Positions 3,618 through 53,983 are shown, counted from the first letter of the stretch. The stretch: DNA of 64,000 bases from a virus (IMGVR_UViG_3300019880_000001:1-64000), one strand, 5' to 3'. Notes: generated by a model not told the origin, from the letters alone. A program made the numbers and translations.

Positions 3618-3625
3618 GGGGTCTC

Positions 3626-24042: not shown

Positions 24043-24716
24043 CGTACGGCGCTCGTGACATCATTCGGCGTCAACGCGCCGATTGCGCGTGCGAGACACC
24101 CGCACGCGCACCCGCTCGTGCGTTCGTTCGCGAAAGCGGCGGACGGATCGTACGTCCGCGCGCGTTCATGCGCGCAGAGGTCTTCGAGCGCGCCAAGACT
24201 CACCGGCCGCGCGACGCCGAGCCGATCGTGCTCGCAGGCAAGCCCGGCTCGAAGTGTCGGCCGTTCCTCAAGGTCGAGAAGGACGCCGAGAAGTTCGCAG
24301 CGTGCAACGCGCTCGCCGACGAGCTCGGGCCCCTCAACGAGCCCGAGAAGATGTACCAGATCATCGAAGACGCCATCGGAGATGAGGTCAACGAAGTCTT
24401 CGGCGTTCTGATGCTCGACATCCACTTGCGTTTCAAGGGTCTCGCCGAGACCGGGCGCGGAGAGCCGTCGAGCGTGATGGCGCCTTTGAAGCCGACGCTT
24501 CAGATGGCGCTCATCTCCGGTGCAGATTCGATCGTGTTGTGGCACGTGCACCCCTCCGGGATCGAAGCCGAGCCCAGCGACGCGGACAAGGAAACCACAG
24601 AAGCGTTCGCCGAAGCGTGCGAGGCCATCGACCTGCCGCTACTGGATCACTTGATCATCGGCGGTGACATTCGGAACCGTAGCTACTTCAGTTTCGCAGA
24701 GGACGGCTTACTATGA
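24039..24716 (+). CDS. RadC-like JAB/JAMM domain protein
   Basis: The C-terminal ~130 residues match the RadC/JAB fold: VFGVLMLDIHLRFKGLAETG, ALISGADSIVLWHVHPSGIE and PSDADKETTEAFAEACEAI, LDHLIIGG. The H-x-H-P-S-G-x5-S-x2-D arrangement is the JAMM zinc motif. RadC-like proteins occur widely in phages and genomic islands, with no settled function. Start TTG 24039 overlaps the previous stop; an internal ATG (MRAEVFERAK, residue 44) is an alternative. The N-terminal arm is Arg/Ala-rich. Confidence 0.75.
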   Translation: MTYGARDIIRRQRADCACETPARAPARAFVRESGGRIVRPRAFMRAEVFERAKTHRPRDAEPIVLAGKPGSKCRPFLKVEKDAEKFAACNALADELGPLNEPEKMYQIIEDAIGDEVNEVFGVLMLDIHLRFKGLAETGRGEPSSVMAPLKPTLQMALISGADSIVLWHVHPSGIEAEPSDADKETTEAFAEACEAIDLPLLDHLIIGGDIRNRSYFSFAEDGLL

Positions 24717-25140: not shown

Positions 25141-26760
25141 ATGTCTCGCGGCAGTAGAAAACGCGAGCAGGACGCAAGCGAGCGCCACTCGGGTGCAGCC
25201 GGCATACCCGCTCAAGAAGACGAAGCCGACATCTTGGAAGAGGTGGGCGGCGAACGCGACGAAGGCGGAGAGCTCATGGTAGACGAGGCGTCTGTCGTGG
25301 CCGTAGGCGCGGTCGACGCCGACAGCGTGCGCACCAATCGGCGCATGGACGCTGTCGTGAAGAAGAAGCGTGGAGGCGAGAAGCACGTCACGTTCAACAC
25401 CGACGACTTGCTCACCATGTACGAGAGCTTGATCAAGGTGTGGGCTCCGAACACGCTCGACATCAGTGTCAGGCGCATGACCGGCTCCGCAGTCACGCGG
25501 GTGATCACCAGCCGTCCTCGATCTGGGGTGGAGCTCTACGAAGCGATCAGGGCCATGCACGGCCTGTGCGAGGAGTCCGAGTACGAGGTCAAGTTCCTCG
25601 ACACCAACCGCAAAATGTATCGCGGCACCGGCCGAATCACGATGCCGGACACGCGCGTTACATCGCCGCAAGGACAATCGCCCATGTACCCGCCGAACGG
25701 TGCGCCTCTAGGATACCCTCCGCCGCAAACGTACCCGCCTCAGCAGGTGCCTCAAGCGGCCCCCGTAGGCGCTCCGCCCGGATCTGATCCGATGGCGATG
25801 ATGCACCAGATGTTTCAACTGTTCCAACAGATGCAAGCGTCGGTGCAACCGCAGTCGCCGTTCCAAGCACCGCAAATGCCGGCAACCGCGCCGGTGTCTT
25901 CACCGCAAGTCGGACCCATGGATCCGATGGCGATGATGAATCAGATGTTTCAGATGTTCCAGCAAATGCAGGGGCAGCAACCCGTGCACGCAGCTCCTCA
26001 GCCCGTAGCGGCGCCGGCGCCTGCTCCGTCGCCGCCAGGAGGGATCGATCAGTTGGCGATGCTGGAGCGGTGCTTCGAGCTCTTCCAGAAAATGCAGCCA
26101 CCGCCGGCGCCGGTTAGCCGTGGGCCGTTCCAGCGCGACCCACGGGCTCCTTACTACCCGCAAGGAGAACGGGCGGGTGGCCCAGAGCGTACCGGCGCAC
26201 CGCAGCAACACCAACCGCCCCAGCGCCCTCCGTCGATGGTCGAGCAGTTCCGCGAATCGATCGGCATCGTGCGTACAGCACGGAGCATGCTCGACGAAAT
26301 GGAAGGGCTGATGCCCGGAAGCTCCCAAGAGGCACCTACGGTGTCGGGCTTGGGCGACGACGATGAGGATAGCCCGATCAAGATCATCGACACCGGCGCC
26401 GGAAAGATCGTCGTCAACAAGCACGACGGCGGCATGCGCCTCTGGGAATCCGGCTTCGCGAACCTGCCCGACATCCTCAAGTGGGGTGGCGAGCAGATCC
26501 AGAAGATCAACAAGACGAACTCCGAGCGCCAACTGCAACAGCAGCAGCCACGACAGCAACTCCCGCCCGGCTACGTCGAGGTGCACCCCGGATACCGCCC
26601 ACCGCCCGGGTACGTGGCGGTCGCAGTCGATCAAGAGCAACCGCAGCAAGAGGAGAGGCTTCCTCCGCCGCCCACGAACTTGCCTCCGCCGATCCATTCG
26701 TCGCCATCGAGGGAAGCGTGGGGCGAGCCAGTGATCACCGATCAAGTCGAGAACGAGTAG
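25141..26760 (+). CDS. Met/Gln-rich repeat protein, 539 aa
   Basis: ATG 25141 is preferred to TTG 25120 because AGCAGGA sits about 10 nt upstream. A folded N-terminal domain (about residues 70-170, LLTMYESLIKVWAPNTLDIS) is followed by a long P/Q-rich region. It contains three copies of an amphipathic helix: DPMAMMHQMFQLFQQMQ, DPMAMMNQMFQMFQQMQ and DQLAMLERCFELFQKMQ, spaced by proline linkers. Further helical and Q-rich segments follow. The three helices could be docking sites for a repeated partner or form a bundle. Possibly a scaffold or a large adaptor; function unknown. Confidence 0.6.
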   Translation: MSRGSRKREQDASERHSGAAGIPAQEDEADILEEVGGERDEGGELMVDEASVVAVGAVDADSVRTNRRMDAVVKKKRGGEKHVTFNTDDLLTMYESLIKVWAPNTLDISVRRMTGSAVTRVITSRPRSGVELYEAIRAMHGLCEESEYEVKFLDTNRKMYRGTGRITMPDTRVTSPQGQSPMYPPNGAPLGYPPPQTYPPQQVPQAAPVGAPPGSDPMAMMHQMFQLFQQMQASVQPQSPFQAPQMPATAPVSSPQVGPMDPMAMMNQMFQMFQQMQGQQPVHAAPQPVAAPAPAPSPPGGIDQLAMLERCFELFQKMQPPPAPVSRGPFQRDPRAPYYPQGERAGGPERTGAPQQHQPPQRPPSMVEQFRESIGIVRTARSMLDEMEGLMPGSSQEAPTVSGLGDDDEDSPIKIIDTGAGKIVVNKHDGGMRLWESGFANLPDILKWGGEQIQKINKTNSERQLQQQQPRQQLPPGYVEVHPGYRPPPGYVAVAVDQEQPQQEERLPPPPTNLPPPIHSSPSREAWGEPVITDQVENE

Positions 26761-27020: not shown

Positions 27021-28247
27021 ATGCGGGAGTACGTAGTTCAGGCCGGCGACAGTCCCGCGAGCATCGCCGCGAAAGACGAGATGGCCGGTTGCCCCAAGTG
27101 TGCGATCGATCTCGTCCGCGCGAATCCCCACAAGAAACCTGTCGTTCACCCGAACGGATTCGCCTCGTTCGAGAGCTTGAGGGCCGGTGAGAAGCTCAGG
27201 TTGCCCGAGAAGTGGTTCAACGGCGATTTGGAGTCTAGACCGCGCGCTTACTTCGCAGCGCTCCCCCACTACGATGGGGTGACCCCCGGCGTCGGCGCAC
27301 CCAACGTGCTCAACGATTACGCCGCGCTCGACGCCGCCGCTGCGAGAGTAGGATCTCTCGCCGCTCTCGGTGATCGAGAGTTCGCTGCCGCCGTCAACAG
27401 CGCCGCTGACGCTGTGGATGCGTCCGTTCGAGAGATAGGCGAAGCGGAAACCGTACCTACCGTCTACGCCGCCCCGTACGCGAGAGATGTGCGCGCAGCG
27501 ACAGCTCAGGCGAGGCAGTACAACAACATGGTGCTCGACTCGGCTATCGCCGCCGGCGACACACAAGAGGCGTTCCAAGCACGTACCGAAATCTTGAAGA
27601 AGCTCTCGGGCGCGCTCGGGTCGGCACGCCTCGCGTTGCAATCGTTCTACGGAGACGCCGGGGCGGGCGGCGCCGAGCGACCGGCACCGCCACCGCCTGT
27701 ACCTGAGATACAAGTGGATATCGGTCCGGCGACGATCGATCCGAAGCCGGTACCGCCGGCCACCGTCGTCACTTCGGCGCAAGCCGCAGCAGCCGCCATG
27801 AGCGCGGACGCCAACTACTGCGCGTCGGTTTCTCGGCCTGGGAGCGCAGTCAATTCGGCCGTTCATGCGTTCAAAACGGCTTGGAACTCCTCGAATCCGA
27901 GCTCGCCGGTGCCCATCAACACCAGCACCTACGAGCAGGCAACGGCCGATGCGATCAGGCTCGCGATCGGAGCCGCTCCTACCGCGTGCGGCGCCGGCGC
28001 GGCGACTGCGGTCCCGTCCCCCGCCGCGCCTCCTCTAGTAGTGCCGCCACAGCCGCAAGCGGCGCGTGGGATCGGCTTTGCCGGCATCCTGGGGCTTGGG
28101 TTGCTCGGCGCCGGCGCTGTCGGCGGCGCGATCTACTACGCCACCAAAGCGAAGCCCTCTACTCGTCGTCGTGTGCGCCGAGTAAGCCCACGACGACGAT
28201 CTGGACAACGCGACACCATTGGCCCCTGGAAGAAGGATCCGTCGTGA
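27021..28247 (+). CDS. LysM-like, C-tail-anchored membrane protein
   Basis: ATG 27021 (not TTG 27015) gives 408 residues. The N terminus REYVVQAGDSPASIAAKDEM is LysM-like (Y-x-V-x-x-G-D-S-x-x-x-I-A). A helical middle follows, then a domain also found at 35655: DANYCASVSRPGSAVNSAVH, FKTAWNSSNPSSPVPINTST and a CGAGAA end. Next come a proline linker, a membrane helix (GLGLLGAGAVGGAIYYATKA) and an Arg-rich tail. LysM domains bind peptidoglycan, so this is likely a virion membrane protein with its wall-binding part outward; topology is inferred. Confidence 0.6.
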   Translation: MREYVVQAGDSPASIAAKDEMAGCPKCAIDLVRANPHKKPVVHPNGFASFESLRAGEKLRLPEKWFNGDLESRPRAYFAALPHYDGVTPGVGAPNVLNDYAALDAAAARVGSLAALGDREFAAAVNSAADAVDASVREIGEAETVPTVYAAPYARDVRAATAQARQYNNMVLDSAIAAGDTQEAFQARTEILKKLSGALGSARLALQSFYGDAGAGGAERPAPPPPVPEIQVDIGPATIDPKPVPPATVVTSAQAAAAAMSADANYCASVSRPGSAVNSAVHAFKTAWNSSNPSSPVPINTSTYEQATADAIRLAIGAAPTACGAGAATAVPSPAAPPLVVPPQPQAARGIGFAGILGLGLLGAGAVGGAIYYATKAKPSTRRRVRRVSPRRRSGQRDTIGPWKKDPS

Positions 28248-28900
28248 TCGATAAGCCTGTAGTGGGCGTGCAGACTGACGCGAGACCGCACCCGGCTGGA
28301 GGAAAAGGAGCTCGGCTCTCGTTGAACGAGGTCGCCGAGCGCGCGTGGAAAGCGCGGATGAGCCCGCGCCTCCGAGCGTGGGTCACGCAGGTGCTCGACA
28401 AGGCCGGCGTGTCGACCGGCGGGCGCCGTCAGAAGGCACAGGCAGTACTGGATGCCTTCCGAAAAAAGGTGCCGTACATCGCCGATCCTGTGATGGGGGA
28501 GTTCATGGCGACGCCGGAGCAGTCGCTTTGCTTGGACGAAGGTGGACTCTGTTTCGTGGGCGGTGATTGCGACGACCACTCGATCGGTCTCGCCGCCGCG
28601 ATGATGTCGATCGGCATCCCCGCCATGATCATCGGCGCGAGCTACAGAGATCCGATCGATGTTCCGACGCACGTGTTCATGGCGTTCCAGGACGACTTCA
28701 AGGACTGGGTGCGCATGGACGGTACGACGAAGCAGGCGGTGGGCCGCGTGTCTCCGAGCCGAAAAGAGTTCTGGGTCGAGCCCGGAGCCACGGCGAAGGA
28801 TAGTGGCGAAGGCGACTTCGTGGGCATGAGCGGAGCGTCGTCAGGAATGCTCGCGGCGCCGGTATCTCTGTCCGATCTGCGCTACCCGGGCATACGTTAG
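28244..28900 (+). CDS. Transglutaminase-like cysteine protease-fold protein
   Basis: GTG 28244 overlaps the previous stop (GTGATC). The 218-residue protein has the transglutaminase-like triad in order: Cys in FVGGDCDDHSIGLAAAMMSI, His in VPTHVFMAFQDD and Asp in WVRMDGTTKQAVG. A helical N-terminal ~90 residues precede the core. Phage members of this superfamily are frequent, and some act as peptidases or amidases in virion maturation or wall digestion. Its place at the start of the virion cluster fits either; substrate unknown. Confidence 0.7.
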   Translation: MIDKPVVGVQTDARPHPAGGKGARLSLNEVAERAWKARMSPRLRAWVTQVLDKAGVSTGGRRQKAQAVLDAFRKKVPYIADPVMGEFMATPEQSLCLDEGGLCFVGGDCDDHSIGLAAAMMSIGIPAMIIGASYRDPIDVPTHVFMAFQDDFKDWVRMDGTTKQAVGRVSPSRKEFWVEPGATAKDSGEGDFVGMSGASSGMLAAPVSLSDLRYPGIR

Positions 28901-28906
28901 TAAAAC

Positions 28907-28943
28907 GCGCGTATCCCGATCGTTTAACACGCGCAGATTATTT
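28907..28943 (+). terminator. Weak terminator-like hairpin
   Basis: A 6-bp stem GCGCGT (28907-28912) / ACGCGC (28929-28934) with a 16-nt loop is followed by ATTATTTTC. It lies right after the stop at 28900 and before a long noncoding stretch. The stem is short, so termination efficiency is doubtful. Confidence 0.35.
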
Positions 28944-29330
28944 TCAATCGCGCACTCGCGTTGATCCGACGCCGATCTCCGGATCGACGCACACACGCAA
29001 CCGTTCGTTCCTGTTGGCGTTTTATCCTTACGTGCGATCGGCGCACGAAGAGAGATCGCCTCTGTAACCACGACCGCAGTTCACCGCAATGCGTGTATTG
29101 CTGGACGCTTTGATCTCGTGTTGCGATTCTTATGGACGAACCGTGACATGGGTCTTTACGACGATCGACTGTCTCAGCTCAGCGAACCGCGGCGTAGCCG
29201 ACGTCTCGCTCAGCGACGTCCCCCATTGTCACAACCCACGCGGCGCAACCCGATGTTGCGCTCAAGCCCCGCGCCGATAGCTGAAGCGCGCCGGCCGTCG
29301 GCCGTTGCACGCGAATCCAAGGAAGAGAAG
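28944..29330 (+). promoter_or_regulatory. Long noncoding leader before virion genes
   Basis: About 390 bp carry no convincing gene: frames present here lack ribosome sites and have shadow-like composition. It contains small inverted repeats (GATCCG ... CGGATC around 28973-28996, and a repeated GACGTC around 29200) and an AAGGAAGAGAAG ribosome site just before ATG 29331. It is the longest gap in the virion cluster and probably holds its main promoter and leader; no consensus boxes are visible. Confidence 0.4.
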
Positions 29331-30641
29331 ATGGCAAAAGCACGCAAGCGCCGCTCGAAGAAGAAGACCGCAGCACCCAAGCGTCGTCGTCGGCGCGTGC
29401 GTGCGGTCGCAGCCCCGCGTCGTCGGCGCGCCAAGAAGAAGGCAGCCGTGACTCGTCGGCGTCGTCGGCGAACCGTGCGCGTGGAAGCCAAGAGGTCTCG
29501 TCGGCGTCGTCGTGCGGCTCCCGCAGCGGCCCCGCGTCGTCGTCGGCGTCGTCGGGTGCATGCGTGGAAGGGCAACTCCGCCGGCCATGCAACGGCCGCT
29601 CGCAAGGGCCATCGGCGTCGGAAGGCACGGAAGGGCGCGAAGCGCGGTCGTCGTCGGAGTCGCAAGACTCGCGAGACCATGTACGCGGCGGCCCCGAAGC
29701 GTCGTCGTCGTTCGCGGCGGTCGTCTCACGTCATGGAGGCGAGTCGCCCTCGTCGACGTCGGCACAGCATGCACGCCTCGCGCGGCGGCATGGGCATCGG
29801 TGGGATCCTCCTCGCGACCGGGTCGGCAGGTTTCGGTTTCGTGCTGGCCGACGGTGTCGATCGATACCTAGCCACGTACTGCCCGACCGACGCGACCAAG
29901 CCGACGGACAAGTTCACGTCGGACGGTGCTGGGACTCTCGCGAACGTGCTCAACATCGCCTCGATGCCGAGCTGGAAGCGAATCGCGGCGGGTGTCGGTG
30001 TGGCAGCGGTTCCCGCTGTCGGATCGATGTTCGTCAAGAACCAGTACGGAAAGGGCGCGCTCGAAGGTCTCGCACTCGGTGCAGGCATCTCGGCGTTCAA
30101 GACGTTCTGGAACACCGTCCTCATGCCGATGATGGTCGGCAAGGACACGTCGGTACCGGCGCTCCAGAAGAGCTACATCGCGCGGCTCTACCCGTCCGAG
30201 GTCGCTGCTTCGATCAACAGAGCACAGAAGCCGGCTGCTTCTGGCGCGCTGTCCGGTGCTCCGGATGTGGGCCCGTTCGCCCTCTCCGGCGACTCGCCGT
30301 ACCCCGACGCGGGGCAGGCGCTTCGAAACGCCACGGGAGTTCATGGCGACTCGCCCTATCCGGATGCCGCTCAGGCACTTAGGACGGGCGTGAGCGATGA
30401 CAGCCCGTACGCGGACGCGGCGCAGGCTCTTCGGCGACAGGCCGGCATGGGTGCCGGCCCCACTCCGACGGGTGGTCCGGACTCTTCGTGGAACCCGGGA
30501 CCTCCCGCGGGTTTCGGTCCCGGACCTCAGGCGCGTCCTCACAAGGACTGTGGCTGCGTCGGTGACGAGAATCCGTTTCTCGGAATCGTCGGTGGCGCTC
30601 CTCTAGAGGAACCGCTGTTCGCTACGGGTACCCCCTCGTAA
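29331..30641 (+). CDS. Protamine-like membrane protein, probable virion core
   Basis: ATG 29331 has a strong Shine-Dalgarno (AAGGAAGAG). The first ~145 of 436 residues are an extreme Arg/Lys domain (for example KRRSKKKTAAPKRRRRRVRA) that should neutralise DNA. Then come hydrophobic Gly/Ala segments (GIGGILLATGSAGFGFVLAD, IAAGVGVAAVPAVGSMFV, GALEGLALGAGISAFKTF) that could be membrane helices. The C-terminal part has three repeats of the type GDSPYPDAGQALR, then a Gly/Pro-rich end with CGCVGDENPF. A protein both DNA-binding and membrane-embedded would tie the genome to an inner membrane; inference. Confidence 0.65.
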   Translation: MAKARKRRSKKKTAAPKRRRRRVRAVAAPRRRRAKKKAAVTRRRRRRTVRVEAKRSRRRRRAAPAAAPRRRRRRRVHAWKGNSAGHATAARKGHRRRKARKGAKRGRRRSRKTRETMYAAAPKRRRRSRRSSHVMEASRPRRRRHSMHASRGGMGIGGILLATGSAGFGFVLADGVDRYLATYCPTDATKPTDKFTSDGAGTLANVLNIASMPSWKRIAAGVGVAAVPAVGSMFVKNQYGKGALEGLALGAGISAFKTFWNTVLMPMMVGKDTSVPALQKSYIARLYPSEVAASINRAQKPAASGALSGAPDVGPFALSGDSPYPDAGQALRNATGVHGDSPYPDAAQALRTGVSDDSPYADAAQALRRQAGMGAGPTPTGGPDSSWNPGPPAGFGPGPQARPHKDCGCVGDENPFLGIVGGAPLEEPLFATGTPS

Positions 30642-30643
30642 GA

Positions 30644-30702
30644 GACACCTCGCGAAACACCCCCGCCCCGGTAGGCCGAAAGAGCCCCGGGGTTGAGGTG
30701 TC
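30644..30702 (+). promoter_or_regulatory. Nested stem-loop upstream of capsid gene
   Basis: An outer perfect 8-bp stem (GACACCTC 30644-30651 / GAGGTGTC 30695-30702) encloses an inner 6-bp stem (CCCCGG 30666-30671 / CCGGGG 30687-30692). It starts 3 nt after the stop at 30641 and ends 77 nt before the capsid-gene ATG. There is no T run, so it looks more like an RNA processing or stabilising element than a terminator. Confidence 0.5.
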
Positions 30703-30778
30703 GAAGGGCCCTGAGTAGCCCCTAAGACAACCGCTCGCGTCGGCCCAGGAAACGGCGAGCATCAGGAGAAGAGAAGTC

Positions 30779-32095
30779 ATGTCCAAGAGCATCGTCGGTA
30801 GGCCCATGAAGAAGTTCGGTCAGGATCAGGAGCGCCCGAAGCGCGTTCCGTTCGGTCTCGGCGTCCCCGCAACGGACGGTACGCTGGCGGCCGATGCCGC
30901 TCAGAAGTGCCTTCGGTGCTCCTTCGGCAACATCCCCGTGATCGAGGAGGTCGTCTGGACGATCCCGCTCCCCCTCACGTCCGAGGAGGCGCTCTCGACG
31001 CTCGGTGACACGGTGAACCTGCTCTCGGGCAGCTCCAGCGTGCCTGGCGTTGCGTCGATCGACTCGACGTTCCTCATCAACGGCATTCTCCAGACGGACA
31101 TTCTGGCGCAGGGCATCGGCGTCCACGTGTTCTGCGAGCCGATGAGCTTCTCGACCATCGGCAACTCTTTCGTTGCGCCGGCGACGACGGTCAACCCGCC
31201 CCCCTCGCCCGACGTGTTCACCACGAACGATCTGACGAACCGTGCGATGAGCACGTCCGTCACGGCGACTGGCGACAACTTCGGCCCGGCCGTGTTCGAG
31301 TTCGGTGCCGACGTCTGGCGCGCAGGCTGGAACTTCATCAACGCCTACCAGTTTCAGTGGAAGACCTCGCAGCGCGAGCTCGTCCTCAATGAGCTGGCGG
31401 CCGACGTGTCGTACTTCGGGTCCTTCGCGGATGCCGAGGCGAGCGGCACGAGCGAAGTGGCCATCATCGAGTTCGTCGCCGCGGTCAACGCGACGTACCG
31501 CTCGAAGGGCTCGTCAACGATCTTCCTGCCGGTCAACTTCCGTCGGGTCGGTTCCGTCAACAGCACGAGCGCGACCAACAACGTTGGCGTGTTCCACCCG
31601 ACGCGCGACTTCGATCTCGCGCCGGTCACCTGGGGCGGTCTCCGATGGCAGGGGTACGGCTGCAAAGGCCAGATGTACCGCCCGATCGAGAGCCCGTGCT
31701 TCCTCGAGCGCGGTATCCCCATCGGGATGCTCTTCGTCGTGCAGGACGCCGTGCACCAGGCGCTCATGCTCCAGGCCGTCACGCTCAACAACGAGCCCTT
31801 CGGCGTGAACGTCAGCGTCGACGAGAACCTCGTCGATGCAACGGCGCCCACCGCGGCGTCCGGCGTTCCCACCGCAGGCGCCATCGTCGTCGGCGGCGCG
31901 AACACCATGCTGGAGCAGACGCTCGACGCGACCCCCGTGCTCGTTCCGCAGCAAGTCAACACCTCCCGCCAGATCTTCAAGGGCGGCATCCTGAAGCTCG
32001 CGATCAAGATCAAGGGCTGGGAAATGCCCGGTGGCTGGAAGGCGTACTGCCAGTCCAACCTGCCCCAGATCATGACGGGATCTGCGTCGGTCTGA
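30779..32095 (+). CDS. Putative major capsid protein, 438 aa
   Basis: The gene has its own leader structure, a strong Shine-Dalgarno (AGGAGAAGAG) and a strong terminator, as expected for an abundant protein. The 438 residues have no signal or membrane segment and are beta-rich with long polar loops, for example IPVIEEVVWTIPLPLTSEEA, VFEFGADVWRAGWNFINAYQ, RGIPIGMLFVVQDAVHQALM and GGILKLAIKIKGWEMPGGWK. Length fits a double jelly-roll or HK97-like protein, but no HK97 or portal/protease context exists. I favour a jelly-roll capsid protein; fold is unproven. Another possibility is a penton or vertex protein. Confidence 0.5.
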   Translation: MSKSIVGRPMKKFGQDQERPKRVPFGLGVPATDGTLAADAAQKCLRCSFGNIPVIEEVVWTIPLPLTSEEALSTLGDTVNLLSGSSSVPGVASIDSTFLINGILQTDILAQGIGVHVFCEPMSFSTIGNSFVAPATTVNPPPSPDVFTTNDLTNRAMSTSVTATGDNFGPAVFEFGADVWRAGWNFINAYQFQWKTSQRELVLNELAADVSYFGSFADAEASGTSEVAIIEFVAAVNATYRSKGSSTIFLPVNFRRVGSVNSTSATNNVGVFHPTRDFDLAPVTWGGLRWQGYGCKGQMYRPIESPCFLERGIPIGMLFVVQDAVHQALMLQAVTLNNEPFGVNVSVDENLVDATAPTAASGVPTAGAIVVGGANTMLEQTLDATPVLVPQQVNTSRQIFKGGILKLAIKIKGWEMPGGWKAYCQSNLPQIMTGSASV

Positions 32096-32112
32096 ACAAC
32101 GGACCGAGTACG

Positions 32113-32162
32113 ACGTTATGCGGGCGGACGTGGGGTCTCTCGCGTCCGCCCGTAACGTTTTT
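32113..32162 (+). terminator. Strong Rho-independent terminator
   Basis: A 16-bp stem (ACGTTA 32113-32118 plus CGGGCGGACG 32121-32130, pairing with CGTCCGCCCG 32143-32152 plus TAACGT 32153-32158, with a 2-nt bulge TG) is followed by a run of five T from 32158. It directly follows the putative capsid gene. Confidence 0.85.
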
Positions 32163-32173
32163 AGGCCCAAGAA

Positions 32174-32773
32174 ATGACGCAGGACGCGCTTCAACTCAGA
32201 CGAGATCGTGATCGCAAATATGCGAGCGAGAAGCGCGCTTCTATGTCGAAGTTGGACAAGAAGGCGTACCTAGCCAAAGAGCGAGAACGGGGTCGCCGTC
32301 GTTATTTGGACCCCGATAAGAAGTCCGGGCGAGTGCGCACGAAAAAGAGAATCGAACAACGGAAGCTCGCAGAGGGGATCTGCGTGTCTTGTACGGAGCT
32401 AGCCACGTGCGCGCGGTTCTGCTTCTACCACTGGCTGGTGAACATCGGCGGCAAGTACGGGTTGAGGGTCAAAAACGGAGGGGTCGAGACTTTGAAAGCG
32501 CTTTGGGGCGAGCAAAACGGCCTGTGCGCGCTCACCGGAGAACTACTAGTTCCGGGGCAAAATGCTTCCGTCGATCACATTCTTCCTCGCTGCCGTAACG
32601 GCCGTAACGAAAAAAGCAATCTCCAGTGGGTGACAAAAGAGGTCAACTACTTCAAGCGCACACGAACCAGCTCGGAGCTTGTTAGAATGTCCTTGAAAGT
32701 CGCTCATCACGCCGAACGTGACGTCAGATCGAACGTCCTTCAGTTCAAGAAGACGTCAGAAGGAAAGGGTTGA
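32174..32773 (+). CDS. HNH endonuclease, probably homing
   Basis: The 199-residue protein begins with a basic helical arm (RRDRDRKYASEKRASMSKLD, and KERERGRRRYL). A CVSCTELATCARFCFYH metal site comes next, then an HNH core: LCALTGELLVPGQNASVDHI, LPRCRNGRNEKSNLQWVTKE and VNYFKRTR. The order D-H-I-x-P, N-x3-N-L-Q-W-V is typical of group I-type free-standing HNH endonucleases. It lies between putative capsid genes, just after a strong terminator, a usual site for selfish homing endonucleases. Its start ATG 32174 is 12 nt after the T run, so expression needs a promoter not seen or readthrough. Confidence 0.8.
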   Translation: MTQDALQLRRDRDRKYASEKRASMSKLDKKAYLAKERERGRRRYLDPDKKSGRVRTKKRIEQRKLAEGICVSCTELATCARFCFYHWLVNIGGKYGLRVKNGGVETLKALWGEQNGLCALTGELLVPGQNASVDHILPRCRNGRNEKSNLQWVTKEVNYFKRTRTSSELVRMSLKVAHHAERDVRSNVLQFKKTSEGKG

Positions 32774-32778
32774 GTCAC

Positions 32779-33384
32779 ATGCAGCCGCACGACCACCAAA
32801 TTCGCAATCTTGCTTTGTACGCTCCGAAGATCGCCTTCGGGATGATGGCCGGCGTCCCCCGCGTGCCGTTCATCGCAGACATTCCGATCCAGTTCTCCTC
32901 GTCGACGGTCAACGCGCCGCCGGTCGTTCAGAACTTCCAGAACAACCTGACGCAAGACACGGTCATCGAGCGGATTGCGTACAACCTCGGTCAGCCGAAC
33001 AGCTTCCCCGGGAGCCCGTTCCAGTCGACGTACTTCAACCAGCTCAAGCAGAGCGGGCAGATCGGCGTCGGCGTGCAAATGGCCGTGTACGGCGGTCCCA
33101 AGTACAACGTCAACGACACCTTCACCGATCTCGGCACCCTCGCAGACGTGTTCGCGGTGACGTGGCCCAACGGGTGGCCGCTCCAGAAGCAGAGCAACGT
33201 GAAGGTGAGCGCAATCCTCACGCAGACGCCGGTGAGCGTACCGTTCAACATCACCATGACGTTCCTCGGGTGGCAGTTCCTCTCGAAGGAGCTCGACGAT
33301 CTTTCAGACGAGGAAGCGCGCGCGCGGTTGCGCAAGCTCGGCGTCGAAACTCCCGACCTGAAGATTCTGCTGTCCAACGGCTGA
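32779..33384 (+). CDS. Putative small capsid (jelly-roll) protein
   Basis: ATG 32779 follows an AAGGAAAGGG ribosome site and is preferred to TTG 32770. The 201 residues are beta-strand rich with few charges in the core: RVPFIADIPIQFSSSTVNAP, LTQDTVIERIAYNLGQP, SGQIGVGVQMAVYGGPKYNV, VSVPFNITMTFLGWQFLSKE. A helical end closes it. Size and neighbourhood fit the small single jelly-roll capsid protein of P23-77-like viruses (about 19 kDa), which is encoded near a larger partner; here the next gene is 296 residues. Fold assignment is inference. Confidence 0.45.
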   Translation: MQPHDHQIRNLALYAPKIAFGMMAGVPRVPFIADIPIQFSSSTVNAPPVVQNFQNNLTQDTVIERIAYNLGQPNSFPGSPFQSTYFNQLKQSGQIGVGVQMAVYGGPKYNVNDTFTDLGTLADVFAVTWPNGWPLQKQSNVKVSAILTQTPVSVPFNITMTFLGWQFLSKELDDLSDEEARARLRKLGVETPDLKILLSNG

Positions 33385-33385
33385 A

Positions 33386-34276
33386 ATGAACGAGCGCATC
33401 GACAACGTGATTCGATTGCAGGCACGCCCAGACGGCGTGGCGCCATCGATCCGTTCGATCCTCCACAACGGCCGAAACGAGATCGTCACCAACGGCCCGA
33501 ACTCGGAGTTCGGGTTCATCGGAAGCGATCCGTACAACACGAACGCCTACACCGGCCTCGTCGTTCCGGCGGTACCCAGTGGGACGATCGGAAACGCGCG
33601 CTACCTCTTCGTGCTCGCGCGTCAGAGTTTCAGCACTGGAGAGCAGAGCTCGGAACACCGCGGCGTGCGCCTCGTCGGAATTCGGCAGTACGCCGAGCTC
33701 ATCGCGCGTCTTCCGGCTCGTGTCGCGCCGCTTGCCGCCAGCGGCCCTCCCGCCGGCAGCACCGTCACGTTCCGCAAGGAGATCACGAGCCCGCTCTGGC
33801 ACCCGCAGGACGGCAACATCTCCTGGCACGTGATGATCATCAACAAGGTGCAGCGCGATACGCGCAACCCCGCCAACACGGACGGGATCATCTACCAGGA
33901 CGCGTTATCGCCCGCGCTCATCTACCAGACTTTGGCGCCGTACACGCCTCCGAACGGCGGACGCCCGTGGGGCACTCCGCTCGGCGCGAGCCTCGGCAAC
34001 ATCCACGAGCTTCGATACCCCTGGCGCACCGAACGGAGCGAGCGCGTGCTCGACATTCCGATTCCGGTGCCGTGCGACGTCGTGCTCTTCGCGAGCGTTC
34101 GTCAAAACGACCCGACACTCAACCCGGTCTTCACCGAGGCGACTGTTGTCACGAGGCAGTTCGCCGCGTTGTCTCCCGAAGACCAGTTCATCGCCGCGTA
34201 CCCCGCGTCTGCTCAATACGGCGCCATCGCCGGCTCGCTCGTGTTCGATCAGAACCTCGGAGCGTGCGTCCCATGA
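33386..34276 (+). CDS. Putative large capsid or vertex protein
   Basis: Begins 2 nt after the previous stop; 296 residues, no signal or membrane segment, strand-rich: EIVTNGPNSEFGFIGSDPYN, ARYLFVLARQSFSTGEQSSE, ISWHVMIINKVQRDTRNPAN, LDIPIPVPCDVVLFASVRQN. Its size is close to the large jelly-roll capsid protein of P23-77-like viruses (about 32 kDa). The gene couples directly to three mini membrane proteins, again as in membrane-containing viruses. Could instead be a penton or minor capsid protein; fold unproven. Confidence 0.45.
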   Translation: MNERIDNVIRLQARPDGVAPSIRSILHNGRNEIVTNGPNSEFGFIGSDPYNTNAYTGLVVPAVPSGTIGNARYLFVLARQSFSTGEQSSEHRGVRLVGIRQYAELIARLPARVAPLAASGPPAGSTVTFRKEITSPLWHPQDGNISWHVMIINKVQRDTRNPANTDGIIYQDALSPALIYQTLAPYTPPNGGRPWGTPLGASLGNIHELRYPWRTERSERVLDIPIPVPCDVVLFASVRQNDPTLNPVFTEATVVTRQFAALSPEDQFIAAYPASAQYGAIAGSLVFDQNLGACVP

Positions 34277-34500
34277 TCAACGGAGGCGCGTACGTACTCT
34301 CGAGCGCGATCGGAGGCTTGGTCTCTGGCGCTATCGGTGCGTCCGTCGCCGAGTCTTCTGATTCGCATCCGGTGCTCAAGGGAGCTCTCGTTGTTGCGGC
34401 TCTCGATGCGCTTCTGGCGACCGCCATCTACGCTGCCATCTCGCAGCCCATACTCCCGCAAGCCGGCGTGAGTGGACTGCACAACCCGAGGTTCCCGTGA
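34273..34500 (+). CDS. Mini membrane protein A, -PRFP C terminus
   Basis: ATG 34273 overlaps the preceding stop. Two Gly/Ala-rich membrane segments (YVLSSAIGGLVSGAIGASVA and GALVVAALDALLATAIYAAI) are separated by an acidic-polar loop, and the protein ends in NPRFP. The hairpin with glycine-zipper spacing and the shared end make it one of three tandem related proteins. Likely a component of a virion membrane; inference. Confidence 0.6.
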   Translation: MINGGAYVLSSAIGGLVSGAIGASVAESSDSHPVLKGALVVAALDALLATAIYAAISQPILPQAGVSGLHNPRFP

Positions 34501-34730
34501 GCCGCGCCGGAGCTGCGTTCGGAAGTGCAGTCGGGCTCGCGCTCGGCGGCGCGTTTGGTGGGTACACCGTCCTCAGCCTCAAGCAAGGACGCGTTACCGA
34601 CAAGACACTGTTCGACGGCGCCGTTGTAGGCGCTTTCGTCGGGACCATCATCGGTGCCGCACTCGGCGCCGGACCCAAAGAGCCAGCTCAGGTCGGAACG
34701 GGACACCCTCTTACTCCGAGGTTCCCATGA
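34497..34730 (+). CDS. Mini membrane protein B, -PRFP C terminus
   Basis: GTG 34497 overlaps the previous stop. It has the same plan: Gly/Ala hairpin (GAAFGSAVGLALGGAFGGYT and DGAVVGAFVGTIIGAALGAG), a charged turn with KQGRVTDKTL, and an end LTPRFP identical to gene A at its last four residues. 77 residues. Confidence 0.6.
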   Translation: MSRAGAAFGSAVGLALGGAFGGYTVLSLKQGRVTDKTLFDGAVVGAFVGTIIGAALGAGPKEPAQVGTGHPLTPRFP

Positions 34731-34945
34731 ACCGCACGGGAGCCGCTTTGCTCGGTCTCGCAATAGGAGGCGTCATCGGTGAAATCGCCGGGCGCTCCCT
34801 CGAGAAAGGGCACGGAGAGGATGCCGAGCTCGAAGGCGCCCTTGGCGGCGGTGTGCTCGGTGCGGCGCTCGGTTCCGTTCTCTTCGCCACTGTGGCATCT
34901 CCTCCGCAACAGCAGACGCATGTCTCGCAGGCAGGGTTTCCATGA
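34727..34945 (+). CDS. Mini membrane protein C, -GFP C terminus
   Basis: ATG 34727 overlaps the previous stop. Helices GAALLGLAIGGVIGEIAGRS and LEGALGGGVLGAALGSVLFA, an acidic loop (EKGHGEDAE) and the end QAGFP. It is the third tandem member; divergence among the three suggests an old duplication. Confidence 0.6.
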   Translation: MNRTGAALLGLAIGGVIGEIAGRSLEKGHGEDAELEGALGGGVLGAALGSVLFATVASPPQQQTHVSQAGFP

Positions 34946-35655
34946 CAACGCCGGCGCAAGCGTACGGGCATCCGACTCTCGACGACGTCCCCGTTTCCGG
35001 ACCGACCGATCCGGGGATCCTCAAAGCGGACTGCTGGTTCGCTCAACACGTTTTACCGACACCGCAACAGGCCGCGTGCGTCGACTGTAAAGGACCAATT
35101 CCAATGTGGGCAAAAACCTCGGGCGTGGGTGAGCAGATTTCGTTCGGCGGAGCGCGCGCTCGCGGCTTCTCGCTCGCCGCACCAGGCGACCCGGACGCTT
35201 GGGTTCAACTCACGCCGGCGCAGCAGACGTGGGTCGTGAACTCGATCCGAACGCTCGACTCGAAGATCCGAGAGCAGACGCACACCACGTGCCCTGGCAT
35301 GCAGACGCCGAGCATCACGGGCATGGCGGGGTGTTTTCAGAACTGGTTCAACGGCGCGCACCTCGGGCTGACGAACCGCGCCGGCGCCCCCGTCGTGCTC
35401 CGCACCGACGGCGTCTTCGATCAGGACACGCTCGACGCGCTTCGCACCGTCACTTCGCTCGACGCGAAGAACTACCCCACCCCGTTCCCGGGTACGGAAG
35501 CGGCGGGCATCGCCCCCGCATCCAAGAAGCTTTCCACCGGCGCCATGGTCGGTATCGCCGCTGCTGGCGCGACCGTTCTCGGTGGGATCGCCTACGTCGC
35601 CATGCACGGCAAGAGCAAACGCAAGGGTCGTCGGACTCGAAGGAGCAAGCGGTAA
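34942..35655 (+). CDS. Peptidoglycan-binding-like, C-tail-anchored protein
   Basis: ATG 34942 overlaps the previous stop. The 237 residues start MTTPAQAYGHPTLDDVPVSG and have six cysteines (for example CVDCKGPIP). A helical domain QLTPAQQTWVVNSIRTLDSK ... RTDGVFDQDTLDALRTVTSL resembles PG_binding_1 repeats, with the D-G-x-F-x-x-x-T turn. The C terminus ASKKLSTGAMVGIAAAGATV is a membrane anchor followed by a basic tail (KRKGRRTRRSKR); the same ASKKLSTGA anchor is in the next gene. Probably a membrane protein of the virion that touches the cell wall. Confidence 0.55.
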   Translation: MTTPAQAYGHPTLDDVPVSGPTDPGILKADCWFAQHVLPTPQQAACVDCKGPIPMWAKTSGVGEQISFGGARARGFSLAAPGDPDAWVQLTPAQQTWVVNSIRTLDSKIREQTHTTCPGMQTPSITGMAGCFQNWFNGAHLGLTNRAGAPVVLRTDGVFDQDTLDALRTVTSLDAKNYPTPFPGTEAAGIAPASKKLSTGAMVGIAAAGATVLGGIAYVAMHGKSKRKGRRTRRSKR

Positions 35656-37133
35656 TGTCGTTCTACAGAGTCACGCCGGGGGAGTCCCCGGCCATGATCG
35701 CACGCAAGCTCGGCACGTCGGTGTCGGCCCTCATCGGCGCCAACGGCCACAAGCCGACAACGGTCGTCGCCGGCAAGCGCACGTTCCAAGCGCTGCGCTT
35801 CAACGAGCTCTTGCACAAGCCTCGTGCAGGCGTCGGAGCGCTCGGTGAGCCCGGCACGCTCGGAGTCACGCCGGCGGATCCGGCAGCTCCGCACGCGCTG
35901 ATCGCGCAAGGAAGCAGCGGCTCGGACGTCGCGCTCTGGCAGAAGATCATCGGCGTCACGGCCGATGGTTCGTTCGGATCGGGAACTGCCGCAGCAACCA
36001 AGTCGTGGCAGACCGCTCACGGGCTCAACCCAGACGGCGTCGTCGGCCCCAACACGTGGGCGAAAGCGCTCGGCAACGCCTCGAGCGCACCGGTGCCTGC
36101 TCCCGTCGCATCCGGCGCGAGCCTCGCAATGGCGGCCGGCGCCGCGTACTCGGCTCTGAACCTGGATCCGAACTACTGCACGAACGTCGCTCGCGCAGGC
36201 ACTCCGGTGAACACGGCCGTCCACAACTTCAAGGCAGCGTGGAACGCCGCCAACCCGAGCCGCGCAGTGCCCATCGGCACCGGCAAGTACGAGCCAGTCG
36301 TGGCTTCTGCGCTCTCGTCGGCGCTCGGCGGAGTGACCGTACCTGCCGGTTGCGGCGCCGGGGCGGCGCAGCCTGCCCCCGCGGCCCCCTCGACGCCGGC
36401 GGCTCCGGTCCCCATGCCGGAACCGACCGTCACCCCCGCCCCCACACCGGCTCCGACGGCCTCGAGCGCCTACAGCGGCGCACAGATCGCCGCTGCCACG
36501 GCGATGAACTCGGCGCTCTCAGCGCACGGCTACAAGCAGGCCGATCAAGGGCTGTACGCGGCGTTCCAGCGCTCGATGGGGATCACGGCCGACGGGTACC
36601 CCGGAACCGGCACGATGGGGAAGCTCAAGGCGGTGCTCGCCTCCGCCGGCATCCCCATGGCCGCGGTACCCGTGTACCCGTGGCGCGCGGGCGCCTACGA
36701 TGGCGTGAACGCTCCCACGCAGAGCTCGTGGTCGGGAGCGTCCGCAACGCCCGCGCCCCCCGCCGTCGCTCCGCCCCCGCCTCCCTCGAGCGGCGGTATC
36801 GCCCCTCCCCCTCCGGCACCTTCTGGCGGCGGCACGGCCCCTGCGGCTTCTGCCCCCGCAGCAGGAGGAAGCACGGCTCCCGTGCCCGTTGCCGCCGGCG
36901 GCGGCGCCATCGTGTCTCCCGCGGCGCCTGCATCGAAGAAGTTGAGCACCGGCGCGATCGTGGTCGGCGCGATCGGCGCGGCGGCACTCGTCGGGCTGAT
37001 CGCCATGGCGGCGACCGGTAAGAAGGGGCACCGCGGAGCTCGAGGCGCGCGAGGGCCGTCTCGTCGCAGCAAGCACAAGAAGCCCGCGCATCACGCGCAC
37101 AAGCCGAAGCGCAAGAGGAAGTCGAAGCGGTAA
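35655..37133 (+). CDS. LysM / PG-binding membrane protein, 492 aa
   Basis: Domains in order: LysM-like (1-50, SFYRVTPGESPAMIARKLGT); PG_binding_1 (about 80-140, LWQKIIGVTADGSFGSGTAA, then GVVGPNTWAKAL); a copy of the domain at 27021 (about 165-235, LDPNYCTNVARAGTPVNTAV, FKAAWNAANPSRAVPIGTGK, CGAGAA); a second PG-binding unit (GLYAAFQRSMGITADGYPGT); a long Pro/Ala/Gly linker; an ASKKLSTGAIVVGAIGAAAL membrane anchor; and a Lys/Arg-rich tail. With several wall-binding modules on a membrane anchor, it could drive wall penetration or vertex attachment. No catalytic motif seen. Confidence 0.65.
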   Translation: MSFYRVTPGESPAMIARKLGTSVSALIGANGHKPTTVVAGKRTFQALRFNELLHKPRAGVGALGEPGTLGVTPADPAAPHALIAQGSSGSDVALWQKIIGVTADGSFGSGTAAATKSWQTAHGLNPDGVVGPNTWAKALGNASSAPVPAPVASGASLAMAAGAAYSALNLDPNYCTNVARAGTPVNTAVHNFKAAWNAANPSRAVPIGTGKYEPVVASALSSALGGVTVPAGCGAGAAQPAPAAPSTPAAPVPMPEPTVTPAPTPAPTASSAYSGAQIAAATAMNSALSAHGYKQADQGLYAAFQRSMGITADGYPGTGTMGKLKAVLASAGIPMAAVPVYPWRAGAYDGVNAPTQSSWSGASATPAPPAVAPPPPPSSGGIAPPPPAPSGGGTAPAASAPAAGGSTAPVPVAAGGGAIVSPAAPASKKLSTGAIVVGAIGAAALVGLIAMAATGKKGHRGARGARGPSRRSKHKKPAHHAHKPKRKRKSKR

Positions 37134-38084: not shown

Positions 38085-39260
38085 ATGACCCGCATCATCG
38101 GTAGGGGCAGGTACGCCACGAGCGTATACCCGAGCAGTCCAAGCGGCGGCTCGGGCGCTGGCGGCGAAGTACTGCCCTTCTCGAATTTGCGCTACCTCGA
38201 TCCGGCAACGACACACGCGGCGCCGCACACGGGATCGGTCAGTAACCCGTGCGTGACGGTCGCCGAGATCGCCGCGCTGACCCCCGGGTTCATGGTGATC
38301 CAGGTCGCCGGAAGCCCAACGGACGACCCGGCGCTGATCCCCGCCGGAACGTTGTGCGGCATCACGGGAATGCCGCAGGTCGGTTTCTTCTTTCCGTCGA
38401 TGACGCTCGAAGCGAGCGCGAATGTTTCGATGCGTGACGTGTACTTCGTCAACATCGGCGAGCAAGAGGGCGGCGGAGCGGCGCAGCTCAATGTCGTGCT
38501 CGCCCTCGACCCGTCGGAATCGACCTCGTTCGCGAATCAGATTCGCCAGATAGATCTCCCGAACTCTCAGGTCTCGCTGACTCGTTGCAACGTCTACTCG
38601 TCGACTAGCGCGACGTTCTTGACGCTCTACCAGTGTCGTATTTCGAATCTCGGTGGAAACCCCGCGCCTGACATCACGATGAACAACGGCGGGTTTTTCT
38701 ACGCCGAAGGCACCGTGTTCAGTTCTTCTGTGCCGTCCACCATCACGCTCGACACGAGCGGAGGACGATTCGTCGAATGCACGTTCACCGGAGCCGTGAC
38801 GATCGACAATGCGACTGGGATCGCGACGTTCGATCAAATTTCGTTGGATAGCCTCAACGCGGCGGGGGGTACTATCACTACTCCCGAGAACCTGGCTCTG
38901 TCTCCGGCGTCGTTGATCGTTCCTATGATCGGAACGCAGACCGTCGCGGCCAGCGCCGTTCTCACGATCGGAGCTAACGCTTCTGCCGTACCTCAGTACG
39001 CATCCAAAGCGACCGCATTCATCCCGCAGGCCGCCGCCGTCGGAGAGTCATTGGCGATCACGCTCGTCATCGCGGGAGGCGCCGTGATCGGGTCAGTGAC
39101 CGTAGACGATACGACTCCCGCCGGCGCCGTAGACATTCCGCTCATAACGCCGAAAGTTCCGATTCCGTCGGCCGGGGTGCTCCTTGCCGATCTCAACTAC
39201 ACGGCCGGAGGCGGCCCAACGCCACTTGCCGCAACCGTTGTCCGCGTCGATTTGATTTGA
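38085..39260 (+). CDS. Spike 1: plug motif plus beta-helix
   Basis: The 391-residue protein starts [20 protein letters not shown], the shared plug, then a Gly/Ser linker (SGGSGAGGEV). The body is a run of short beta strands typical of right-handed beta-helix spikes (VSLTRCNVYSSTSATFLTLY, FVECTFTGAVTIDNATGIAT), ending in a beta-sandwich-like C-terminal domain. No catalytic motif recognised. It is the first of two such spikes in a row, 13 bp apart, with the paralog-like plug at 39274. Binding to host surface glycans is the likely role. Confidence 0.6.
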   Translation: MTRIIGRGRYATSVYPSSPSGGSGAGGEVLPFSNLRYLDPATTHAAPHTGSVSNPCVTVAEIAALTPGFMVIQVAGSPTDDPALIPAGTLCGITGMPQVGFFFPSMTLEASANVSMRDVYFVNIGEQEGGGAAQLNVVLALDPSESTSFANQIRQIDLPNSQVSLTRCNVYSSTSATFLTLYQCRISNLGGNPAPDITMNNGGFFYAEGTVFSSSVPSTITLDTSGGRFVECTFTGAVTIDNATGIATFDQISLDSLNAAGGTITTPENLALSPASLIVPMIGTQTVAASAVLTIGANASAVPQYASKATAFIPQAAAVGESLAITLVIAGGAVIGSVTVDDTTPAGAVDIPLITPKVPIPSAGVLLADLNYTAGGGPTPLAATVVRVDLI

Positions 39261-39273
39261 AAGAGGTATTCCA

Positions 39274-40503
39274 ATGAGCCGAGTCATAGGTCGAGGTCGC
39301 TACGCCACCGAAACGTACCCGTCAGGCCCCGGAGGCGGAGGCGGCGCCGGCGGCGCGAGCGTTCCGTTCGCTCGGCAGCGTTTCATCGACGGGGATACGG
39401 CGCAGACCGGATTGAACGGATCGGCCGCGGAACCGTACGAGACCATCGAGCAGTTCATGACTGCGCGGGACAACACCATCTCGGCGGCTGATTCTGCGGC
39501 GAACTTCGTCGGGTGGCTCATGCCGGCGCTCGCCGGGTACGTGGAAGACGTTGCATTCCGCGCTCGGTGCTCGACGGAGCTCCGAGCCGATTCCATGTCG
39601 GTGCCTGGTACCGGCGGCGTGACCATCGACGGTGATATTTCGTGGACCAACACGTCAGGTACCGCGGCGGCGCCGGCGGCCATTGCTTCGCTTCACAACA
39701 TCAACGTGACGGGCACCATTACGGTGACCGACAACGCCGAGTCTCCCGAATTGCTATTCTCCATCAGCGGAGACGAAGAGCCTGGAGGATCCTCTGCGGT
39801 CATAGGCGGGTTCGATTCCAGCACGACCACGACGTTGGCGTCGATATCGCTCAACAACGCGCAGTGCACCGGCGATCTCACCGCAGGGGTCGCGGCCGAC
39901 AGCGCTGTGGTGATCCTCACAGGCGGATCTATAATTACCGGAGACATCACCGCAAAAGCACTTCAATGCAACAACGCGGTCATCGACGGAGCCGTTACGG
40001 TAAACGCGGCTGGATTTGCGATTTTCCGCGCTTCTGCTTTCGCAGGGGCATGTGCGCTCACGGCTGCCACCTCATCGTTCGATGGGGACTCCTGGCTTAG
40101 CTTCTTGGCAAACGGCGGAACTCGTGTTGCAGGAACGACTGTGCTCGTCACAGGAGGCGCCAGTACCGCTCTCGTAGAAGGTGCGGCTCTGACAGGCGCG
40201 TCTACGAACGTGTCTCTGAACGGCACGGGAGCAACGGCTGGTTTCACTGGCGCTAACTCCGGCAACCACTACACGACGTCGAACGGGACCCCGACCACCG
40301 TCACACTCAAAACCGGCGGCGGAGAGTTGGTGGGCGACACGATGCTCATCACGAAGACGGATCTCGGCGCGAACGTTGTAGCGGTCAAGAACAACGCCGG
40401 AGCGCAGATCGCATCGATCCCAACGCTCGCCAAAGGGTTCGTGCTCGCACGATTCAATGGCTCCGACTGGGTCTTCGTGTCGGGAGGTTCGATGCTGGCA
40501 TGA
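39274..40503 (+). CDS. Spike 2: plug motif plus beta-helix
   Basis: Starts [20 protein letters not shown], then a Gly linker, then FARQRFIDGDTAQTGLNGSA, as in many tailspike entry segments, and a strand-rich repeat body (NINVTGTITVTDNAESPELL, LTGGSIITGDITAKALQCNN). The C terminus holds TVTLKTGGGELVGDTMLITK, a beta cap. 409 residues; body unrelated to spike 1 beyond fold. Good ribosome site (GAAAGAGG). The stop overlaps the next start. Confidence 0.6.
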   Translation: MSRVIGRGRYATETYPSGPGGGGGAGGASVPFARQRFIDGDTAQTGLNGSAAEPYETIEQFMTARDNTISAADSAANFVGWLMPALAGYVEDVAFRARCSTELRADSMSVPGTGGVTIDGDISWTNTSGTAAAPAAIASLHNINVTGTITVTDNAESPELLFSISGDEEPGGSSAVIGGFDSSTTTTLASISLNNAQCTGDLTAGVAADSAVVILTGGSIITGDITAKALQCNNAVIDGAVTVNAAGFAIFRASAFAGACALTAATSSFDGDSWLSFLANGGTRVAGTTVLVTGGASTALVEGAALTGASTNVSLNGTGATAGFTGANSGNHYTTSNGTPTTVTLKTGGGELVGDTMLITKTDLGANVVAVKNNAGAQIASIPTLAKGFVLARFNGSDWVFVSGGSMLA

Positions 40504-40835
40504 GCGGATTCCTGCTCATCTCAGCGCTCGTCGGCGCAACTCTTCTCGTCGTACGCAGCACCCTCTTTGATCCGATTCGTCGGATTTGGCCCGCGCTCTT
40601 GCGATGCTCCCAGTGTTTCGGCACGTGGGTAGGCATCGCCGCGAGCGCGAGTGGCGTCGTGCCGGTAGGGCACGGGCGGATTCTTGACGCGCTCATCGTC
40701 GGAGCGGCGACAAGCTTCTTGTCGCTGCTAGCCGATGCTGTACTCTTGTATTTGCTCGGCGATCCGAGCGAGGAGCCCGAATCCCATGCGCCGAAAACTG
40801 ACGACTCTGAAAGCAAAGATGGGGCACAGCCATAA
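40500..40835 (+). CDS. DUF1360-like membrane protein, 111 aa
   Basis: ATG 40500 overlaps the spike 2 stop. Two or three membrane segments (MSGFLLISALVGATLLVVRS, LIVGAATSFLSLLADAVLLY) bracket LLRCSQCFGTWVGIAASASG. The C-x2-C-x-x-x-W-V-G pattern between helices is that of DUF1360-type small membrane proteins found in phages. The C terminus is acidic. Role unknown. Confidence 0.55.
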   Translation: MSGFLLISALVGATLLVVRSTLFDPIRRIWPALLRCSQCFGTWVGIAASASGVVPVGHGRILDALIVGAATSFLSLLADAVLLYLLGDPSEEPESHAPKTDDSESKDGAQP

Positions 40836-41019
40836 CGGTTGCGCTCGCGCGCTCGCGGACATCTCGCTCTACCGAGAGCACCGAAACAACCACAACGTGC
40901 ACGCCAACGTCGGCGGTGCGGTTTCGCCTCACTACGACACTGGTTTTAGCGGATGGTCGAACGCCTCTCGCCCGAGAGACAGCGCCATCTCTTTGCGATC
41001 CGTTACGGCACTCAGCTAG
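40786..41019 (+). CDS. Hypothetical protein, 77 aa
   Basis: ATG 40786 lies inside the previous gene with GCGAGGAG upstream; ATG 40819 would also work. The product (MRRKLTTLKAKMGHSHNGCA, then SLYREHRNNHNVHANVGGAV) is His/Asn-rich. It ends before a terminator-like hairpin. Weak evidence; may be a real small virion protein or a shadow. Confidence 0.4.
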   Translation: MRRKLTTLKAKMGHSHNGCARALADISLYREHRNNHNVHANVGGAVSPHYDTGFSGWSNASRPRDSAISLRSVTALS

Positions 41020-41033
41020 TTCGATCGGAGTAA

Positions 41034-41063
41034 GCCGAAAAATATTCAGTCGGCGATTTTTCG
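41034..41063 (+). terminator. Hairpin with T run before collagen spike
   Basis: GCCGA (41034-41038) pairs with TCGGC (41050-41054), followed by GATTTTTCG. An overlapping inverted repeat CGAAAAAT / ATTTTTCG (41036-41043 / 41056-41063) could form an alternative pairing. The location after 41019 and before 41082 suits a weak intrinsic terminator. Confidence 0.45.
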
Positions 41064-41081
41064 TCGAATCGAAAGCCTGAA

Positions 41082-42202
<1,121 letters not shown>

Positions 42203-42206
<4 letters not shown>

Positions 42207-47305: not shown

Positions 47306-47308
47306 AAA

Positions 47309-53783: not shown

Positions 53784-53983
53784 CGCCGGTCCGTCGCCCC
53801 ACTTCGGAAGCGTTGGATGAACCAATCGATCGACCATTGTGGTGGAAGAACCCCATCGTTCACTGCGGCAAGAATGTTCGCAGCGGCTTGTGCCGCGAAC
53901 GGCGCCCACCCTAATGCGATGCACTCCAACTCCGCGCGCTCTTCGGGCGTGATGATGTCGAGCCCGGTACCGCAGGGGATCAT
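53780..53983 (-). CDS. Small helical protein, 67 aa
   Basis: ATG 53983 overlaps the ATPase stop. The product MIPCGTGLDIITPEERAELE then LAAVNDGVLPPQWSIDWFIQ is a compact helical protein. A different-frame extension over the same bases is rejected because only this frame is coupled. It may be a partner of the ATPase. Confidence 0.5.
   Translation of the reverse strand: MIPCGTGLDIITPEERAELECIALGWAPFAAQAAANILAAVNDGVLPPQWSIDWFIQRFRSGATDRR

Follow-up and report, generated by a model that had tools for sequence, protein, structure and literature searches.

Among membrane-containing phages, the largest genome known to us is that of SSIP-1, of approximately 44 kb. It is a virus of bacteria with two types of capsid protein (PMC6356626), and the prokaryotic double jelly-roll viruses recovered by metagenomics have genomes of approximately 7–18 kb with an FtsK-HerA ATPase, packaging ATPases of the FtsK/HerA superfamily being the norm among prokaryotic jelly-roll viruses (PMC5894146). 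SPV1 combines a jelly-roll capsid, a lipid layer and a nucleoprotein core, with no ATPase among its assigned functions, and its structure suggests enclosure of condensed nucleoprotein (PMC8459092). Here we describe an IMG/VR virus record from an undescribed group whose circles measure approximately 55–127 kb and lack the tailed-phage packaging and capsid genes of the families tested; no description of the group was found in the open literature (most preprints and subscription papers were outside our reach). Judging from gene content and predicted protein anatomy, the likeliest reading is that these are tailless jelly-roll viruses of a new lineage, whose genomes are unusually large.

The stretch analyzed, of 64,000 nt (the window), corresponds to bases 1–64000 of a record of 83,913 bp, whose remaining 20 kb were also fetched and read. 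Bases 7–132 of the record recur exactly as its final 126 bases, and an end overlap of this size is a typical assembler trace of circle closure; we therefore read the record as a complete circle, or a genome with redundant ends, of approximately 83.8 kb, which makes the whole genome checkable. A simple gene caller, cruder than standard ones and uncertain for small genes, called 121 genes, which together occupy 84% of the record. The original observation is confirmed, with genes starting at 27021, 28244, 30779, 32779, 33386, 34273, 34497, 34727, 34942 and 35655, plus 53980 on the minus strand, all present.

A triad of genes coding for proteins of 438, 201 and 296 aa is found in at least 30 other IMG/VR contigs, 13 of which also close as circles, for a total of 14 circular records including that of the window. 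Across approximately 30 contigs the relatives of the three proteins show a median identity of 73, 72, and 63%, respectively, with the same gene order, and the 201- and 296-aa genes come after the 438-aa gene at every locus where they were located. Relatives of the 438-aa protein are 65–86% identical in most of 29 IMG/VR contigs, with a second clade at about 43–46% identity from which more members were reached. In comparisons with the nearest relative, third codon positions show approximately 2- to 6-fold more changes than the first and second, a bias seen in five genes of the module and in the basic domain of the gene at 29148–30641. The conserved order and the excess of third-position substitutions indicate that these are real, constrained genes. 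At the sensitivity used, the 438-aa signature protein had no match in plasmid records or in GTDB genomes (84,980 genomes), and a search of 50,697 deposited phage records gave no match for any of the three proteins.

Circularity was called from end overlaps of 87–127 bp in the 14 records, with approximate sizes of 54.8, 59.9, 63.3, 66.9, 70.5, 79.5, 80.1, 83.8, 85.5, 95.8, 111.3, 116.2, 124.5 and 127.4 kb; the 54.8- and 95.8-kb circles are less certain, as their repeats are not exactly at both ends. A size above 64 kb had been put forward as exceptional for a tailless virus, and the very large size is borne out.

The region at 27–37 kb, proposed from the sequence as a virion cluster, is a conserved, syntenic and virion-like module. 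The signature gene of the group (30779–32095, plus strand) is likewise conserved and syntenic, and encodes the 438-aa candidate major capsid protein; it precedes the genes for the 201-aa (32779–33384, plus strand) and 296-aa (33386–34276, plus strand) candidate capsid proteins, the latter conserved and syntenic with the other two. The three proteins have no worthwhile match in Pfam or PHROG, are not alike when compared with one another, and their sequence profiles retrieved nothing notable from the PDB, with no capsid chain. An AlphaFold2 model of the 201-aa protein, built on 30 aligned relatives, was confident (pLDDT 82.4, pTM 0.76) and predicts a jelly-roll-like beta sandwich, in agreement with the fold anticipated for it. 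Its sole Foldseek match in the PDB below E 0.001 was VP4 of SPV1 (6oj0_A; E 8.5e-4, probability 0.94), also retrieved from a viral library (1.3e-3), followed by other jelly rolls that include circovirus and picornavirus capsids and, weakly, a chain from HHIV-2 (E 0.03). Since the TM-scores are low (0.34–0.37) and the same list contains non-viral, cellular jelly rolls (furin P domain, CBM6), we assign the protein to a predicted jelly-roll-like fold class and claim no kinship with its matches. The AlphaFold2 model of the 438-aa protein was poor (pLDDT 55.7) and without significant structural match, and a likeness to papillomavirus L1 (Foldseek E 0.5–9, TM ~0.1) was rejected because of the quality of the model.

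Among solved structures, VP4 is the one that best matches the 201-aa protein, and SPV1 (Portogloboviridae) also has a circular dsDNA genome. Its single jelly-roll capsid proteins and its nucleoprotein core under a lipid layer may have counterparts here, the protamine-like membrane protein being suggestive of the latter. However, SPV1 infects archaea and its 20-kb genome lacks replication genes, whereas the circles described here are approximately 3–6 times larger, with genes for a replisome and for wall-binding proteins, and a profile search of the PDB found no sequence similarity to the SPV1 capsid. In P23-77 (Matshushitaviridae, Halopanivirales, which also include HHIV-2) the genes for the small and large capsid proteins are adjacent and in the same order as here (173 and 291 aa, compared with 201 and 296 aa). 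The original prediction had likened these two proteins to those of P23-77-like viruses; kinship is not supported, comparison of our candidates with VP16 and VP17 showing no profile similarity (hhalign probability 0.3%). Additionally, P23-77 has a genome of 17 kb and a packaging ATPase gene close by, whereas none lies near the virion module here, and a third capsid candidate, of 438 aa, is conserved in our group. SSIP-1, judged by its description, would be similar in being membrane-containing with two capsid protein types. The Tectiliviricetes and other double jelly-roll viruses of the PRD1-PM2 type would share with our group a tailless, membrane-containing body plan, and 438 aa falls within the size range of double jelly-roll capsid proteins; conversely, their prokaryotic members recovered by metagenomics are much smaller and carry an FtsK-HerA ATPase, and the model of the 438-aa protein is poor.

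The gene at 29148–30641 (plus strand) encodes a 497-aa protamine-like protein, a candidate DNA-condensing membrane protein on account of its Lys/Arg content and hydrophobic segments, and a real protein judging from its coding substitution pattern. The ORF had been noticed in the original prediction and the proposed function stays as a candidate role, with its start corrected to 29148, where the conserved MGLYDDRL provides the best start for this ORF, which ends at 30641. The protamine-like (Arg/Lys-rich) part comprises the N-terminal 200 residues, and the rest contains two hydrophobic segments; the full-length relatives all contain 42–57 Lys/Arg in their richest 100 aa, in open frames of approximately 450 to 1200 codons. 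A recurrent W.G....H..AA.KG.R-like peptide, possibly a DNA-binding repeat, occurs in the basic domain (29148–29768) and in its relatives from the clades examined.

In exactly three of the proteins called genome-wide, all of them from the module, a C-terminal membrane helix precedes a tail with at least 25% Lys/Arg. One is a candidate wall-binding virion protein (27021–28247, plus strand; tail with 13/37 Lys/Arg) which on reading of its sequence has a LysM-like N-terminus; this resembles the LysM N-terminus of the protein at 35655, with no Pfam match of its own. The others are a 237-aa protein (34942–35655, plus strand), recognized by its anatomy, and a 492-aa protein (35655–37133, plus strand; tail with 18/40 Lys/Arg) containing PG_binding_1 (5e-15) and LysM (8e-5) Pfam domains. 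The C-terminal anchoring predicted for wall-binding proteins thus holds for the three, and wall-binding domains are identified by Pfam only in the last one. The three tandem mini membrane proteins that had been predicted are also present within 34273–34945 (plus strand; starts at 34273, 34497, and 34727); they are hydrophobic, of 75, 77, and 72 aa, and poorly conserved beyond close relatives. Together, the protamine-like protein and the three anchored proteins suggest a virion with condensed DNA and lined by a membrane. The presence of an internal membrane is deduced from protein anatomy alone, and the combination of basic-tail anchors with LysM and peptidoglycan-binding domains would fit proteins that sit in a DNA-enclosing membrane and reach to the cell wall.

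The upstream end of the conserved module is a RadC-like JAB-domain gene (24168–24716, plus strand; Pfam RadC 6e-25), present in all seven whole records compared, whose product could be a maturation protease. It is followed by the gene for a 539-aa protein with a Pro/Gln-rich middle (25141–26760, plus strand), which has no Pfam or PHROG match and is matched in all six other whole records, as is a 501-aa core protein without family match and a candidate spike (57677–59182, plus strand). A transglutaminase-like (papain-fold) enzyme (28244–28900, plus strand; Pfam Transglut_core 1.1e-5), in whose sequence candidate Cys, His and Asp residues are visible, is also found in all whole records. A common cleavage motif (GLG/GFG near the N-termini) was looked for, and was too weak to be claimed. 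Downstream of the module, fibre- or spike-like proteins starting at 38085, 39274 and 41082 (collagen-like) are encoded within 38085–42206 (plus strand), and 45485–48013 (plus strand) contains the genes for another fibre-like protein (45485) and a lysozyme-type transglycosylase (47309). These four otherwise different fibre-like proteins, together with those at 49226 and, in the related circle G001, at 2135 and 110136, have a common N-terminal peptide resembling [IV][10 protein letters not shown]; this peptide has the look of a signal for attachment to the virion that can be exchanged between proteins.

The genome also contains phage-like genes for a sigma factor, a VapE-like helicase, a Sak4-like ATPase, a PD-(D/E)XK exonuclease, ThyX and a tyrosine recombinase, as well as an 876-aa protein fusing a uracil-DNA glycosylase domain to a family A DNA polymerase (record positions 62570–65200, crossing the window end). 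As these other genes resemble those of phages, the structural module is unusual and the replication module ordinary; viruses often combine modules in this way. Of the minus-strand genes, a glycosyltransferase (phrog_3408, 5e-91) and methyltransferase-like pair at 42931–44627 has no counterpart in six whole relatives, and those at 1664–4630 include one for a DUF2935 protein that is 96% identical in G001, absent from the other five whole relatives, and may hint at the host.

One rival explanation is that the record derives from a tailed phage of the Caudoviricetes, with terminase, portal, capsid and tail genes that have diverged beyond the reach of profile searches. Its replication module does resemble those of tailed phages (PolA, VapE-like, Sak4-like, sigma factor), the fibre-like proteins match tail-fibre PHROGs through their collagen repeats, and phrog_2666, matched by a HerA-like ATPase of the genome, carries the label terminase. 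Nevertheless, profiles for the TerL ATPase (PF03354), Terminase_6N (PF03237), the portal family tested (Phage_portal, PF04860) and the HK97-type Phage_capsid (PF05065) were absent from all 30 records (the whole window record plus 29 relatives), and that for the TerL nuclease (PF20441) from the 14 circles, with control genomes being positive in each case; absence from closed circles is stronger evidence than absence from fragments. Likewise, there is no tape-measure-like protein in the window record, G001 or the circle G022, whose long proteins are polymerases, helicases, fibre-like proteins or proteins without assignment; the virion module shows no head or tail PHROG match other than peptidoglycan-binding domains; and the 201-aa protein is predicted to be jelly-roll-like, not HK97-like. 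The original assertion that the virus is not a tailed phage thus remains in place for the families tested, after extending the search for terminase, portal and tail genes to the complete circle and the 13 others, and we consider a diverged tailed phage to be quite unlikely.

A second explanation, consistent with the practice of prokaryotic jelly-roll viruses, would be a tailless membrane virus that packages its DNA the FtsK/HerA way, with diverged ATPases replacing the motor in relatives without HerA. A HerA-like ATPase with an extra C-terminal part is indeed encoded on the minus strand at 53980–55728 (Pfam DUF87 9e-7, phrog_2666 1e-20), as originally noted, and a protein search detected homologs in 7 of 24 relatives, HerA/DUF87 profiles matching 7–11 of 30 records. 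However, a long distance separates the gene from the virion module, several closed circles (G022 among them) lack it, and its nearest annotated relative among deposited phages is in a tailed-phage genome having its own terminase and portal; additionally, in the circle G001 the protein has lost its C-terminal part, though the ATPase domain is intact. We therefore regard it as accessory and reject it as the core packaging motor of the group. A packaging ATPase of the Halopanivirales type is thus not conserved across the 30 records, where Zot was also not found (0/30). The recognizable ATPases of G022 are a UvrD helicase, an AAA_24 protein of recombination type and a 752-aa protein with a Walker motif. 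It is possible that a packaging ATPase is too diverged for these searches, but packaging by HerA in this group seems unlikely to us. Finally, a large circle with many lipoprotein-like and wall-binding proteins, known from its genes, could be a non-viral, plasmid-like extrachromosomal element with cell-surface proteins. This we find very improbable, given its phage-type sigma factor, polymerase and recombination set, its lysozyme domain and its collagen-like fibres with a shared anchor, and given that the signature protein matched no plasmid record or GTDB genome at the sensitivity used.

On balance, we favor, as rather probable, that the record is a complete circular tailless dsDNA virus from a group of 55 to 127 kb, having a membrane-lined shell and a condensed genome that is probably enclosed without a shared motor. 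The 438-, 201- and 296-aa proteins would form a shell of icosahedral symmetry around a lipid membrane, and the protamine-like membrane protein would condense the circular genome and tether it to the membrane. The tail-anchored LysM/peptidoglycan-binding proteins may span this membrane, their basic tails facing the DNA, and would attach to the cell wall during entry together with the fibres, which would be held by their common N-terminal peptide. Since the complete circles have no packaging ATPase in common, and by analogy with SPV1, the genome would probably be enclosed as condensed nucleoprotein during assembly and not pumped into an empty shell, which is the simplest alternative to a HerA motor. 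We hold only tentatively the bolder proposal that these tailless viruses of prokaryotes make up a lineage of their own, of high rank, in which circles reach 127 kb and a protamine-condensed and membrane-tethered genome is enclosed in a very large jelly-roll shell with no motor.

Tailless jelly-roll viruses are already a known kind, and the novelty here lies in the exceptional genome size and, possibly, in dispensing with a motor. Those published from bacteria and archaea are small, and large prokaryotic DNA viruses are thus usually assumed to be tailed; searches based on terminase or HK97 markers would miss a group such as this one. Should this reading be confirmed, no tailless viruses known from microbes would be larger, and a group reaching 127 kb without recognizable terminase would uncouple genome size from the tailed body plan. 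Prokaryotes would also gain a counterpart to the large jelly-roll viruses that infect eukaryotes, and the packaging of big dsDNA genomes without a dedicated motor would become testable.
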